Source: Lachnospiraceae bacterium (GTDB lineage Bacteria; Bacillota; Clostridia; Lachnospirales; Lachnospiraceae). Taken from it: a DNA stretch of 64,000 nucleotides. Made by a program: the position numbers and the translations under genes. Location: positions 62,001-126,000 of the forward strand of contig JAFWZV010000019.1 in the NCBI GenBank assembly GCA_017517305.1, read 5' to 3'. Within the stretch, counting starts at the first letter, position 1, and each line of letters starts with the position of its first letter. This document shows, in pieces, positions 45,928-50,725 of the stretch. Under the pieces are notes generated by a model, which did not search any database, was not told where the DNA came from, and worked only from the letters and a program-made list of their open reading frames with translations.

Positions 45928-46014
45928 TTGTATACTGTATACAATTTATGTATCGAAAAAAGTACAATTATTTAATTTGCATTCGTTGACTTGTATACAA
46001 TTTGAAATTATAAT
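45928..46014 (+). promoter_or_regulatory. pfl promoter with two GTATAC palindromes
   Basis: TTGACT (45986-45991), 17 bases, TATAAT (46009-46014). TTGTATACAA (45991-46000) fills the spacer, and a perfect 17-base palindrome TTGTATACTGTATACAA lies upstream at 45928-45944. The shared half-site TTGTATAC suggests a dimeric repressor, perhaps GntR-like. It is not the usual Rex-type TTGTGA site. Confidence 0.7.
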
Positions 46015-46138: not shown

Positions 46139-48181
46139 ATGGAATCAGCAGCATGGAATGGTTTCGTAGGCGGCAAGTGGCAGGAAGAAGTTAACTTAAG
46201 AGACTTCATCCAGAAGAACTACACAGTGTATGAGGGAGATGACGCTTTCTTAGCTGAGCCTACACAGAACACTAAGGATTTATGGCAGATGGTACTTGAC
46301 CTTTCTAAGAAGGAGAGAGAAGCAGGCGGTGTTCTTGATATGGATACTAAGGTTGTTTCAACACTTACTTCACACGGTGCAGGTTACCTTGATAAGAGCA
46401 AGGAGACAATCGTTGGTGTTCAGACAGACGCTCCATTCAAGAGAGGTATGAACGTTTACGGTGGTATCCGTATGGCTATGAAGGCTTGTGAGGATAATGG
46501 ATATAAGGTAGACCCAGAGGTTGTTGAGTTCTTCACTACTCATAGAAAGACTCATAACGCAGGTGTATTTGATGTATATGATGAGGAGATTAGAAAGTGT
46601 CGTTCTAACCACATCATCACTGGTCTTCCAGATGCTTACGGTCGTGGACGTATCATCGGTGACTACAGAAGAGTAGCACTTTACGGAATCGATTACTTAG
46701 TAGCAGACAAGAAGAAGCAGAAGGATTCATACGGTAAGGTATATACTGATGATGTTATCAGAGCTAGAGAGGAGATCTCAGAGCAGATCAGAGCTCTTGG
46801 CGAGTTAAAGCAGATGGCAGCAGCTTACGGAATTGATATTTCTAAGCCAGCTACAAACGTACAGGAAGCTATCCAGGCAGTATACTTCGGTTACCTTGGA
46901 GCAGTTAAGGAGCAGAACGGTGCAGCTATGTCACTTGGACGTACTTCAACTTTCCTTGATTGTTATGCAGAAAGAGACTTAGCTAACGGTACATTTACTG
47001 AGGAGCAGATTCAGGAGTTCATTGATCACTTCATTATGAAGCTTCGTATTGTTAAGTTTGCTCGTACACCAGAGTACAACCAGTTATTCTCAGGAGATCC
47101 AGTTTGGGTAACTGAGTCACTTGGTGGTGTTGGTATCGATGGCAGACCACTTGTAACTAAGATGACATTCAGATATCTTCACACTCTTGATAACTTAGGT
47201 GCAGCTCCAGAGCCAAACTTAACAGTTCTCTGGTCAACTAAGCTTCCTATCAACTTCAAGCAGTACTGTGCTAAGATGTCAATTAAGTCTTCATCAATCC
47301 AGTACGAGAATGATGATATGATGAGAGTAACTCACGGTGATGATTACGCAATCGCTTGTTGTGTATCTTCAATGAGAGTTGGTAAGGAAATGCAGTTCTT
47401 CGGAGCTAGAGCTAACCTTGCTAAGTGTCTCCTTTACGCTATCAACGGTGGTGTTGATGAGTGTACAGGTGTACAGGTAGGACCTAAGTACAGACCAATC
47501 ACTTCTGAGTACCTTGATTTCGATGAGGTTATGGAGAAGTATGATGACATGATGGAGTGGTTAGCAGGAGTTTATGTATCAGCTCTTAACATCATCCACT
47601 ACATGCATGATAAGTATGCTTACGAGAGAATTCAGATGGCTCTTCATGACAGAGATGTTAGAAGATACTTCGCAACTGGTATCGCTGGTCTTTCAGTTGT
47701 TGCTGACTCACTTTCAGCTATCAAGTATGCAAAGGTTAAGCCAATCAGAAACGAGCAGGGTATCGTAGTAAGCTATGAGACAGAGGGCGATTTCCCTAAG
47801 TATGGTAACAATGATGATAGAGTAGATAGCATTGCTGTAGATCTTGTATCAAGATTCATGAACAAGATTAGAAAGCATCACGTATATAGAAACGGATTCC
47901 CTACTATGTCAGTTCTTACAATTACTTCAAACGTAACTTACGGTAAGAACACTGGTGATACTCCATGTGGTAGAAAGCATGGTCAGCCACTTGCACCTGG
48001 TGCAAACCCACTTCATGGTAGAGATAAGAGCGGTGCTCTTGCATCACTTTCATCAGTAGCTAAGCTTCCATTCATGGATTCACAGGATGGTATTTCAAAT
48101 ACATTCTCTATTATTCCTGGAGCACTTGGTAAGGAAGATCAGGTATTCGCTGGTGACATCGAAATCGACCTTAATAAGTAA
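46139..48181 (+). CDS. pflB: Pyruvate formate-lyase catalytic subunit lacking the glycyl-radical domain
   Basis: 680 aa from the ATG at 46139, fixed by AAGGAGG at 46122-46128. It is homologous to E. coli PflB from its N-terminus ([20 protein letters not shown]) through the active Cys pair Cys407-Cys408 ([20 protein letters not shown]) and the block [20 protein letters not shown]. It then stops after [19 protein letters not shown]. coli PflB continues for about 80 residues with the RVSGYAV radical loop; here that part is a separate protein encoded at 48451-48699. The enzyme converts pyruvate and CoA to acetyl-CoA and formate. The first of three genes in one operon; very highly optimised codons suggest high expression. 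Confidence 0.95.
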
Positions 48182-48198
48182 TTATAAGGACTGATTAT

Positions 48199-48411
48199 AT
48201 GGATAATGGATTAAGCAATATTGACGATATAGTAGCTATGCTTGACGATATGATGTCGAAGGGACACGGACACGTTAATGTGTCCGTTGACCCAGACACA
48301 GTTGGTAAGAAGGTTGATACCATGGGATGCACAGATTGTGCAAAGGGTGATTTGGCCTGTGCTATACCAACACTTCATGAGGGCATAGACGAGTATATGA
48401 ATCAAGATTAA
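48199..48411 (+). CDS. Radical-less, Cys-containing paralog of the glycyl-radical subunit
   Basis: 70 aa. Residues 8-32 (IDDIVAMLDDMMSKGHGHVNVSV) match residues 7-31 of the downstream 82-aa subunit ([20 protein letters not shown] continuing VNV). The end, IPTLHEGIDEYM, matches [12 protein letters not shown]. The middle, which in the subunit holds the radical loop RVSGYAV, is replaced by TMGCTDCAKGDLACA with Cys44, Cys47 and Cys54 (CxxC-x6-C). It therefore cannot carry a glycyl radical. It has its own AAGGA ribosome site and lies 17 bases after pflB. It might dock in the same pocket of PflB as a plug, metal or redox sensor, or assembly factor; that is inference. Confidence 0.8.
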   Translation: MDNGLSNIDDIVAMLDDMMSKGHGHVNVSVDPDTVGKKVDTMGCTDCAKGDLACAIPTLHEGIDEYMNQD

Positions 48412-48450
48412 AACATTAACAATATATTAAAATTATAGGAGGATATAACA

Positions 48451-48699
48451 ATGGCTAGTACACAGCAGATCGATAACTTAGTAAGCATGTTAGATGGTTA
48501 CGTAGAAAAAGGCGGACACCACCTTAACGTTAACGTATACAACAGAGAGACTCTTCTTGATGCTCAGAAGCATCCAGAGAACTACCCACAGTTAACAATC
48601 AGAGTTTCAGGCTACGCAGTAAACTTCATCAAGTTAACTGAGGAGCAGCAGAACGACGTAATCTCAAGAACTTTCCATGAGAGCATTGACAAGATGTAA
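48451..48699 (+). CDS. Stand-alone glycyl-radical subunit of pyruvate formate-lyase (GrcA-like)
   Basis: 82 aa. It contains the complete C-terminal radical domain of [41 protein letters not shown] with radical Gly54, and [17 protein letters not shown]. It resembles E. coli GrcA/YfiD and the last 80 residues of PflB. Because the neighbouring PflB has no such domain, this protein must be an essential subunit here rather than a repair spare. A strong GGAGG site precedes the ATG. PflA (50839-51621) would activate it by hydrogen abstraction from Gly54. It is last in the pfl operon, before a terminator. Confidence 0.92.
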
Positions 48700-48703
48700 G
48701 GAA

Positions 48704-48865
48704 ATGGACTGAGAGCAGTCAGAAAATATAAAGACAGTCGGGAGAGGACGCTTGCGTACTCAACCGGCTGTTTTTATTTTTCTGGCTATTTGAAGGCATA
48801 ACGCACGGCTAATCGACGAGCGAAGCGAGTCGGTTAGATGGGCGTTATGACTGCTCTCAGTCCAT
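48704..48865 (+). repeat. 18-bp perfect inverted repeat enclosing the pfl terminator and a second hairpin
   Basis: ATGGACTGAGAGCAGTCA (48704-48721) and its exact complement (48848-48865) are 126 bases apart, starting four bases after the stop codon of the 82-aa subunit gene. Between them are the pfl terminator (48734-48781) and a second hairpin (CTAATCGAC with GTCGGTTAG around GAGCGAAGCGA, about 48811-48839). The overall design, unique outer arms around inner hairpins, recalls the elements at 2.3, 30.5 and 37.1 kb, but the core sequence is unrelated. The remaining 48866-49056 is AT-rich with nothing identified. Confidence 0.75.
48734..48781 (+). terminator. pfl operon terminator
   Basis: CAGTCGG (48735-48741) pairs with CCGGCTG (48764-48770, one T-G pair), and inner GAGGACGC pairs with GCGTACTC. 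TTTTTATTTTT follows. Confidence 0.85.
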
Positions 48866-49056: not shown

Positions 49057-49593
49057 ATGAAAAAGAAAATATTAATTCCCCTTGTTATTATATTATTGAT
49101 GATAGCCACTATGGTACCAGTTATCGTAAAGGACATTAAAGAAAAAAATAGAATAGCATGTAACGAGGTGGAAAGAAAACTAGACTACTATATGTATCCA
49201 TTGAGGATTAGTGGTGAGTTTGATGTGGAAAAAGACAAGATTACCATAATAAGTATGGAACAAAATGAAGCAAGAGTAAAACATGAAGTAATCCTGTTTA
49301 ATACATTTTATCCGGATTATGCTACTACATATGATGAATTGATGAATGAGTTTTATTCCTATTGCGATAATCCTAGAGAAATAGAGCTTTTAGAGATATA
49401 TAGAAAAGGAAGAGGAAATATTTATGATGAGATGTATGGTGTGTCCTATCATGATTATGAAAAAATGATTATTGCTTATTTAGAAGAAATAAATGTGGAT
49501 TATGAGACTGCTTCAGATGAACAAATTGAGGAAGCCTGTAAAAAGGTTGCAGAACAATTATTTGAAGAACACTGTGACTGGTATGAGGATTAG
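49057..49593 (+). CDS. Membrane-anchored hypothetical protein, paralog of 50135-50725
   Basis: 178 aa. N-terminal anchor helix (about 4-24), then an acidic soluble domain. It shares a pattern with the product of 50135-50725: DYYMYPLRISGEFDVEKDKI against DYMEILHIKGEYTIEDDEV, and LFNTFYPDYATTYDELMNEF against LYNAFYPEEPLTAEELNYEF. No strong ribosome site (GAGAG). Codon use is more AT-rich than in the neighbouring metabolic genes, so the three-gene block may be acquired. Function unknown. Confidence 0.7.
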   Translation: MKKKILIPLVIILLMIATMVPVIVKDIKEKNRIACNEVERKLDYYMYPLRISGEFDVEKDKITIISMEQNEARVKHEVILFNTFYPDYATTYDELMNEFYSYCDNPREIELLEIYRKGRGNIYDEMYGVSYHDYEKMIIAYLEEINVDYETASDEQIEEACKKVAEQLFEEHCDWYED

Positions 49594-49646
49594 TTTATCA
49601 GTACAAGTGGTTTTTGCTGAGAGTACAATAGGAGATTAATATTAGA

Positions 49647-50138
49647 ATGATGAAAGTCAAACTTAATGTTGCACATGAAAAATGTTTAAACTGTGGGACG
49701 GAACGTATTTTGTATTTTACCCATAACTATACATATGGTGAAAGAATTGTTTCCACTAAAAGTGGGAAGAAGTGTGCTTATGCAAATCTTATTGGCGAAA
49801 ATATCATACAAGAGCTAGAAGAATATTGTAATGAGTTATTCTTGGAGAATGGTATTGTTATGCCGTCCATAAAAATGGCAAGAATTGTATCGAATATATA
49901 TGGGGTAACATGTGATGAAATAGAGGGAGAAAAAATAGATACAATTCCTAATACAAAATGTCCTAATTGTCTTGAGAAAAAAATGATAGAAGACAAAACC
50001 TTAGGCGAACAGTTAAAAGAGGTTGAAATCTGTGAGGTAACACATAATGAGTGGGAAAGGCTAGATAAAAAAGAACGAAAAGAAATAGTTAACAACGAGT
50101 TAATTAGGCAGGGATATTTAATGGGAGGATTATTATGA
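49647..50138 (+). CDS. Hypothetical protein with two Cys pairs
   Basis: 163 aa. CLNCGTE near the N-terminus and CPNCLEKK near residue 110 could form one zinc site. No membrane segment. Between them lies a helical region (LIGENIIQELEEYCNELF). The stop overlaps the next ATG (ATGA), so it is translationally coupled to the paralog gene that follows. No family recognised. Which of the two adjacent ATG codons is used (49647 or 49650) is unclear. Confidence 0.65.
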   Translation: MMKVKLNVAHEKCLNCGTERILYFTHNYTYGERIVSTKSGKKCAYANLIGENIIQELEEYCNELFLENGIVMPSIKMARIVSNIYGVTCDEIEGEKIDTIPNTKCPNCLEKKMIEDKTLGEQLKEVEICEVTHNEWERLDKKERKEIVNNELIRQGYLMGGLL

Positions 50139-50725
50139 AGAAACAATCTCAAATTAAAGATCAAATAATAATAACCATTACGTTAATAGCTGTATTCGGC
50201 ATACTGGTTCTCTCTGTAATCTGGTTGGCAAATAACGATCCAAAGTATGACCCAAGGCTAGAAGCCGAGGGGGAATACCATGAGTCGGTCAGGCGTAATC
50301 ATCTAATGGATGATTACATGGAGATTCTTCATATCAAGGGAGAATATACTATTGAAGATGATGAAGTAATTTTCGAGAGCCAAGAGCAGGAAATGTGGAA
50401 ACTTATAGAGGATGTGTCATTATACAATGCTTTTTATCCTGAAGAGCCACTTACCGCAGAGGAACTCAACTATGAGTTTGAACTCTTTTGTCAAGATTGG
50501 ATTGGATCCGACAACATGCGAAAGCTTGAGAGAGGCTTGATAGAAATTGAGTATAGAGCTGAAAAGGCAGGGATAAATCTAGAGGATTATGGATACCATC
50601 TTAAGGTAGCTAAACGGCTTGATGATTATGGTACTAATATATATGACGCTACCACTGAGCAGTGGTATAAAGCATCAGAATATGCGGCAAATGCGTTGTA
50701 TATAGAAGTAGCAAATAAAGAGTAA
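50135..50725 (+). CDS. Membrane-anchored hypothetical protein, paralog of 49057-49593
   Basis: 196 aa. Anchor helix at about 13-33 and an acidic external or cytosolic domain related to that of 49057-49593. GGGAGG lies inside the end of the upstream gene and serves this ATG. The two paralogs flank a Cys-pair protein, suggesting one functional unit. Its nature is not known. Confidence 0.7.
   Translation: MKKQSQIKDQIIITITLIAVFGILVLSVIWLANNDPKYDPRLEAEGEYHESVRRNHLMDDYMEILHIKGEYTIEDDEVIFESQEQEMWKLIEDVSLYNAFYPEEPLTAEELNYEFELFCQDWIGSDNMRKLERGLIEIEYRAEKAGINLEDYGYHLKVAKRLDDYGTNIYDATTEQWYKASEYAANALYIEVANKE

Follow-up and report, generated by a model that had tools for sequence, protein, structure and literature searches.

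Pyruvate formate-lyase (PFL), which cleaves pyruvate to formate and acetyl-CoA, is central to anaerobic sugar metabolism and is the textbook example of an enzyme whose own radical lets oxygen destroy it. Within a 64,000-nucleotide stretch of a Lachnospiraceae genome (assembly GCA_017517305.1, contig JAFWZV010000019.1, positions 62,001 to 126,000; here, the window), this enzyme is encoded in parts. The gene for its body, pflB, stops short of the glycyl radical domain; that domain is carried by a separate 82-amino-acid (aa) protein of the GrcA3 type, and a third small gene, here called MID, lies between the two. The best overall explanation, to which we give a probability of roughly 0.8, is a PFL whose radical domain sits on a gene of its own and for which a cysteine element, borne either by MID or by the tail of PflB, is part of the split state.

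Profile searches and alignments locate the cut. The TIGR01255 model (744 positions) scores 1107.3 bits on PflB against a cut-off of 994.2 and includes the CC pair at residues 407 and 408, yet the radical domain is not on this chain: the match stops at position 665, and positions 665 to 744 are found on the 82-aa protein. Pfam PF01228 (106 positions) is likewise divided, with positions 2 to 51 on PflB and 50 to 106 on the 82-aa protein. When aligned with E. coli PFL (PDB 1h16), residues 4 to 670 of PflB cover 9 to 681 and residues 8 to 78 of the small protein cover 683 to 758, RVSGYAV included, such that the two jointly span residues 9 to 758 with one residue absent. PflB ends short of the stretch leading into the radical domain and has no glycine loop. 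These results bear out the central observation of an earlier note, made from the letters of this DNA alone, that PflB ends at 680 aa while a separate 82-aa protein has RVSGYAV. The positions that it gave for Cys407 and Cys408 in PflB and for Gly54 in the small protein are also correct, as are the separate ribosome-binding sites (RBSs) of the two parts, aaaggagg for PflB and aggagg for the 82-aa open reading frame (ORF).

The earlier note had further taken the small protein to be an obligatory subunit and had proposed looking for a full-length PflB in the same genome. None was found: searches of the host genome (2.72 Mb, 98.66% complete) with PF02901, PF01228, and PflB itself returned a single PFL-like match and no second PFL. 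The three PF01228 matches are the two PFL halves and NrdD, the last of which scores above the TIGR02487 cut-off. Because the genome yielded no other PFL, the 82-aa protein very probably serves as an obligatory radical subunit rather than as a spare, and because PflB lacks the glycine loop, this protein must supply the radical if the enzyme works at all. A split holoenzyme with an obligatory radical subunit is thus the part of the interpretation that we hold most firmly, and we consider it highly probable.

The split is not the singular find it had first seemed to be. We sampled 299 genomes of the host's family (Lachnospiraceae), of which 254 match the PFL model (E <= 1e-10) and 246 the GrcA3 model (E <= 1e-15), and the radical domain occupies a short frame of its own in at least 114. 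Full-length PFLs clear the GrcA3 threshold easily (3.1e-28 in G271 and 1.2e-32 in G207), and some fused PFLs also exceed the cut-off of the corresponding NCBIfam model, NF038360 (G252, G096, and G074). Only one GrcA3-profile match at this threshold is present in 58 of the at least 114 genomes with a stand-alone radical protein. Both the 114 split genomes and the 6 among them that also have a full-length PFL are lower bounds. A phylum-wide sample gave matches at E <= 1e-20 in 136 of 398 genomes; here, a frame of about 85 aa for the radical domain occurs only in the host's genome and in that of a congener. Three further short frames in this sample belong to a distant split enzyme (G499) or are pieces of longer PFLs (G325 and G495). 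Finally, among 584 relatives ranked by GrcA3 similarity, the best 80 loci all have short radical-protein frames, and their named hosts include Eisenbergiella tayi, Kineothrix alysoides, Claveliimonas bilis, Beduini massiliensis, and Ruminococcus sp. YE71. In six of seven named genomes, no match other than the split PFL exceeds the PFL-model cut-off; Claveliimonas bilis has a full-length enzyme as well.

The distant enzyme in G499, a genome from another family of the same phylum, is a separate case. Its locus (L167, 3-2617) encodes the body of a PFL2-type glycyl radical enzyme whose TIGR01774 match ends at position 708 of 786; about 90 bases after the body stops, a separate ORF of about 86 aa carries positions 709 to 786 with RVAGYSA. 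This arrangement was seen in one genome only; among eight genomes of its family, a relative (G705) has the domain in a single 835-aa frame. Apparently, another glycyl radical enzyme has here been split independently at the junction where PFL is cut.

Phylogenetic analysis groups the split enzymes. In a 137-row tree, 92 split PFLs fall on one side of a branch with local support of 99, accompanied by 7 fused PFLs in two places, and a second tree method, applied to 38 of the 64 MID rows and 21 of the 33 full-length rows from the family, gave a similar picture; both trees were midpoint-rooted. A tree that kept the split rows separate from every fused row was rejected at a p-AU of 0.026, a moderate value from a test that presumes a group named beforehand. 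One split followed by two re-fusions is the simplest account, with moderate support. The re-fused L029 enzyme retains a cysteine cluster, TCGCEEVTC, in its linker, which reads as if a PflB tail ran straight into a radical subunit, while the other six fused PFLs of the split clade have no such linker cysteines.

Two alternatives to a split holoenzyme deserve to be weighed at this point. One is that PflB is a broken pseudogene or the product of a sequencing frameshift, for which no supporting observation emerged. The recurrence of the same split in many genomes excludes a frameshift, as the earlier note had also concluded on other grounds, and both versions are ruled out by that recurrence together with variable spacers, separate RBSs, strong codon bias, and a dN/dS of at most 0.13 in all 35 gene comparisons, out of 36 (12 locus pairs, three genes each), for which a ratio was obtained. 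The other takes the 82-aa protein for an ordinary spare of the GrcA/YfiD type, with a full-length PFL elsewhere doing the work. NCBIfam calls its family an autonomous cofactor, a full-length PFL is listed as well for at least 6 of the at least 114 split genomes, and 3 of the 7 named genomes have additional, unlinked GrcA3 copies. Nevertheless, the host genome yielded no further PFL, PflB itself has no glycine loop, split PFLs cluster together in trees, and the gene order is conserved; we therefore judge the spare-part explanation very improbable, and for this genome refuted unless the portion missing from the assembly contains a full-length pflB.

GrcA3 genes do occur away from pflB. Among the best 80 loci, 16 show no pflB in the fetched flanks, some of them at contig ends (examples are L083, L095, L101, L119, L134, L142, and L143), and each of the three named genomes with additional copies has one GrcA3 adjoining pflB and another elsewhere. 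The GrcA3 genes without a neighboring pflB may be true spares for the split PFL.

The middle gene had been passed over as incidental, but it represents a conserved family tied to the split and is a third component. The window MID has three cysteines in its C-terminal half (Cys44, Cys47, and Cys54; ..GCTDCAKGDLACAIPTLHEGIDE..) and no glycyl radical motif. Its N-terminal half aligns with the radical subunit: hhalign pairs MID with GrcA3 N termini over 29 columns (probability, 96.2; E, 2.7e-9), and the MID profile also finds GrcA3 N termini at E values of 1e-7 to 9e-5. Over its first 30 residues MID aligns with the start of GrcA3, and the place of the radical loop is taken by a peptide with two near-invariant cysteines. 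Judged from these profiles, the N-terminal halves of MID and the radical subunit are homologous. Neither Pfam nor NCBIfam has a family that matches MID above its cut-off (best E of 0.26 and 0.02, respectively, the latter to GrcA3 at 15 of 158 bits); nothing among PDB sequences falls below an E value of 0.05, and a profile search of solved structures gave a best E of 0.56.

To describe the distribution of MID, we counted both loci and genomes. The locus census comprised 118 loci (the window and L035 to L151), near-copies such as L041/L151, L045/L123, and window/L072 included, and 16 in which the end of pflB could not be seen were excluded. Among the remaining 102 split loci, MID occurs in 71 and a PflB tail bearing two or more cysteines in 30; no locus combines the two, and one lacks both. 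The tails of MID-less lineages often contain a similar peptide (the MID profile matches the G092 tail at E 5.2e-5). At the genome level, 101 of 299 matched the MID profile and 78 were kept (at least 39 bits); the 23 dropped matches (below 34 bits) were mostly to GrcA3 N termini or to a PflB tail. All but one of the 78 MID genomes are among the at least 114 with stand-alone GrcA3, the exception (G006) being 67% complete; Fisher's test of this association treats related genomes as independent. Conversely, 37 of the at least 114 genomes have no MID, and when all of their PflB tails were read (the cysteines of the last 18 by eye), 36 had at least two cysteines and one (G288) had none. MID is kept elsewhere in the genome in G282 and G130, where the order is pflB-pflA-grcA3, and it lies on a different contig from GrcA3 in G297 and G002. 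In the seven genomes with fused PFLs of the split clade, the MID profile found no match outside the PFL itself. Taken together, the sequence evidence indicates that MID is conserved and belongs to the split PFL system.

Codon usage offers a hint as to abundance. Genes were scored by their likeness to PflB codon usage relative to other window genes, with PflB itself scored half against half. GrcA3 (0.246) and PflB (0.202) score high, while PflA (-0.262) and MID (-0.360) are near the mean of 24 other window genes (-0.303). Across loci, GrcA3 scores above MID in 28 of 31 (Wilcoxon P of 2.3e-8, with the loci related to one another). This pattern suggests that PflB and GrcA3 are matched and abundant and that MID, its codon bias being at background, is scarce. 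MID as a stoichiometric subunit is disfavored for the same reason.

Comparison with known systems sets the split PFL apart from each of them. E. coli PflB (TIGR01255; PDB 1h16) shares the body (57% identity over 644 aligned residues, 2pfl versus the L138 model), the catalytic cysteine pair, the RVSGYAV loop, and the activating enzyme, but it is a single chain, whereas the window enzyme is cut between the equivalents of residues 681 and 683, and its parts flank a third gene. E. coli GrcA/YfiD (TIGR04365) also has its radical domain in a small stand-alone protein. That protein, as described in PMC8683613, is 127 aa long, has a disordered N-terminal half, and repairs damaged full-length PFL. The window protein scores 97.4 bits against TIGR04365 (cut-off, 170), and the genome yielded no full-length PFL for it to repair. 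It also lacks the N-terminal extension of about 60 residues typical of YfiD, with only 7 residues before the part that aligns from PFL residue 683. The small protein is not without a name: at 165 bits (cut-off, 158) it is a member of NCBIfam GrcA3 (NF038360), a family titled autonomous glycyl radical cofactor.

The closest solved chains to PflB are PDB 38LA (687 aa) and 38LB (739 aa), both labeled "Formate acetyltransferase". Neither is among the radical-domain matches in PDB sequences. In the tree, 38LA adjoins the split-PFL group and 38LB lies inside it on a long branch; 38LA ends in LGKED, and 38LB is aligned to residue 703 of 739, the remainder being too short for a radical domain. These are probably split-type bodies already solved, although either may be a truncated construct; no radical-subunit or MID chain was found among PDB sequences. 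Benzylsuccinate synthase (BSS) and 4-hydroxyphenylacetate decarboxylase also have small extra subunits beside a glycyl radical enzyme but keep the radical domain on the large subunit, unlike the window enzyme, in which the radical domain itself is the separate subunit. The small subunits of BSS bear [4Fe-4S] clusters (PMC12590467). A search of the open-access PMC literature, a scope that leaves aside most subscription papers and preprints, returned no account of a natural split PFL or of MID. The chemistry of PFL is known, then, while the split architecture and the third component are undescribed within the literature searched.

Homology with E. coli PFL and YfiD allows us to infer how the parts might dock and pass on the radical. 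PflB would supply the barrel and the catalytic cysteine pair, and GrcA3 the equivalent of E. coli residues 683 to 758, namely, the run-in to the domain, strand beta10, and the glycyl radical loop. GrcA3 would dock at the place that the C-terminal domain occupies in E. coli PFL, the PFL-activating enzyme would install the radical on Gly54, and that radical would abstract hydrogen from a PflB cysteine, leading to catalysis. Oxygen would cleave the radical-bearing GrcA3, and the small subunit alone would then need replacement. Whether such exchange after oxygen damage is the benefit of the split is a matter of even odds.

The two-cysteine peptide, provided in trans by MID or in cis by the PflB tail, may occupy or guide the open radical-domain site. 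From there it could help GrcA3 to dock or be activated and could spare the open PflB body when GrcA3 is absent. This site-keeping or hand-over role of MID is put forward tentatively, as the likeliest of the roles weighed here. At a similar or slightly lower level of confidence, the whole might be pictured as a "cartridge enzyme", with the radical on an exchangeable subunit and MID or the tail as a glycine-less stand-in that holds the empty site, its cysteines shielding the active site or handing over the next subunit. If true, this would make MID an exchange factor devoted to a protein-based radical cofactor, and we know of no other.

Several observations weigh against the interpretation of a split PFL that works with a cysteine element. 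In E. coli, the pair of YfiD and an engineered truncated enzyme, tPFL (residues 1 to 695), matches PFL in activity after activation, so that two chains can in principle form a working PFL; however, no binding of YfiD by tPFL was measurable, and the radical yield was 32-fold below that of cPFL (PMC8683613), so the efficiency of a plain two-part PFL is not obvious. Two natural features could cure this poor docking, as GrcA3 brings everything from residue 683 and the cysteine element is present; the natural cut lies about 14 residues ahead of the end of tPFL. Split PFLs without a cysteine element nevertheless exist, at L077 (a 1.2-Mb genome with no MID) and in G288 (L201), and in L053 and L070, MID stops after the first cysteine pair (GCTDCAK and GCTTCSQ), without the ACxxPTL peptide. 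Full-length PFLs coexist with the split enzyme in the 6 or more genomes noted above and in Claveliimonas bilis. MID is apparently scarce, yet the PflB tail is necessarily 1:1 with PflB, and a single role must suit both. Finally, the two-part complex in these organisms is a prediction from sequence; a joined-chain AlphaFold model gave both small proteins (MID and GrcA3) and the end of PflB pLDDT values mostly below 50 (the L139 row was left out of the alignments used for folding).

Other roles for MID must be set beside site-keeping and hand-over. MID could be a competitor that plugs the radical-domain site through its GrcA3-like part, brings its cysteines near the active site, and acts as a reversible off-switch for PFL, for example, on oxygen. 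Its homology to the N-terminal half of GrcA3 without the radical loop, its two near-invariant cysteines, and the lack of a MID match outside the PFL in genomes with fused PFLs of the split clade all agree with this. Such a plug is unlikely, however, given that the cysteines sit on a PflB tail without a GrcA3-like half in 30 of 102 loci and that background codon bias suggests MID to be too scarce for plugging all PflB. Alternatively, MID or the cysteine tail could be an activation element that binds PflB and GrcA3 only during radical installation, replacing the recognition element of E. coli residues 696 to 733. According to PMC8683613, this stretch of E. coli PFL is needed for YfiD binding and activation and not for turnover. 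Split PflB is without it, and here it arrives with GrcA3; MID is expected at low abundance, like PflA. We regard this role as possible and only slightly less likely than site-keeping; no resemblance was seen between the cysteine peptide and residues 696 to 733. Last, MID is a small cysteine protein inside a glycyl radical enzyme operon and might bind metal as an accessory subunit, in the manner of the small [4Fe-4S] subunits of BSS; in that enzyme, an accessory subunit promotes thiyl radical formation (PMC12590467). Against this stand the number of cysteines, two near-invariant in the family and three in the window MID, which falls short of a four-cysteine cluster within one monomer and disfavors a cluster protein of that kind; the solved-structure search, with its best E of 0.56; and a homology that leads to GrcA3 instead. 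A metal-binding role is accordingly improbable.

Coordinates of the split PFL locus and associated features in the window.
Feature	Position	Strand	Evidence
Promoter-like site TTGACT-17-TATAAT, 5' of pflB	45986..46014	+	11/12 consensus matches
PflB, 680-aa body of the split PFL, with catalytic Cys407/Cys408	46139..48181	+	RBS aaaggagg
MID, middle gene, 70 aa	48199..48411	+	weak RBS ataagga
GrcA3-type radical subunit, 82 aa, RVSGYAV with Gly54	48451..48699	+	RBS aggagg; NF038360, 165 bits
Stem-loop, 3' arm running into a T-rich stretch, 3' of the radical-subunit gene	48717..48787	+	RNA fold
PFL-activating enzyme PflA (radical SAM), 260 aa	50839..51621	+	TIGR02493, 294.8 bits (cut-off, 231.75)

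Promoter-like sites of the type listed show no excess, with 6 in the region against a mean of 8.9 in its shuffles. The stem-loop is a probable terminator; the RNA at 48701-48790 folds at -38.7 kcal/mol, a value given without shuffled comparison, and a simple terminator scan raised no flag there. Three small ORFs (178, 163, and 196 aa; 49057-50725) separate the radical-subunit gene from that of the activating enzyme, unlike in the congener G180 (L182), where the activating enzyme is closely downstream. A perfect palindrome, TTGTATACTGTATACAA, lies 5' of pflB at 45928-45944 and recurs, identical or nearly so, at L073, L074, and L182 (4 of 53 loci, all near relatives); it is a possible operator.

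A natural two-part PFL, the sole PFL found in many gut bacteria, shows evolution separating the breakable part of the enzyme from the rest. The distance of about 14 residues between the natural cut and the end of tPFL, which docks its spare badly (PMC8683613), makes their comparison a test of what makes splits work. MID adds a small protein family that has no curated Pfam or NCBIfam model and is closely linked, genomically, to the split state. The split PFL is a ready system in which to study radical-domain docking, activation in trans, and whether swapping the radical subunit aids the recovery of anaerobes from oxygen.

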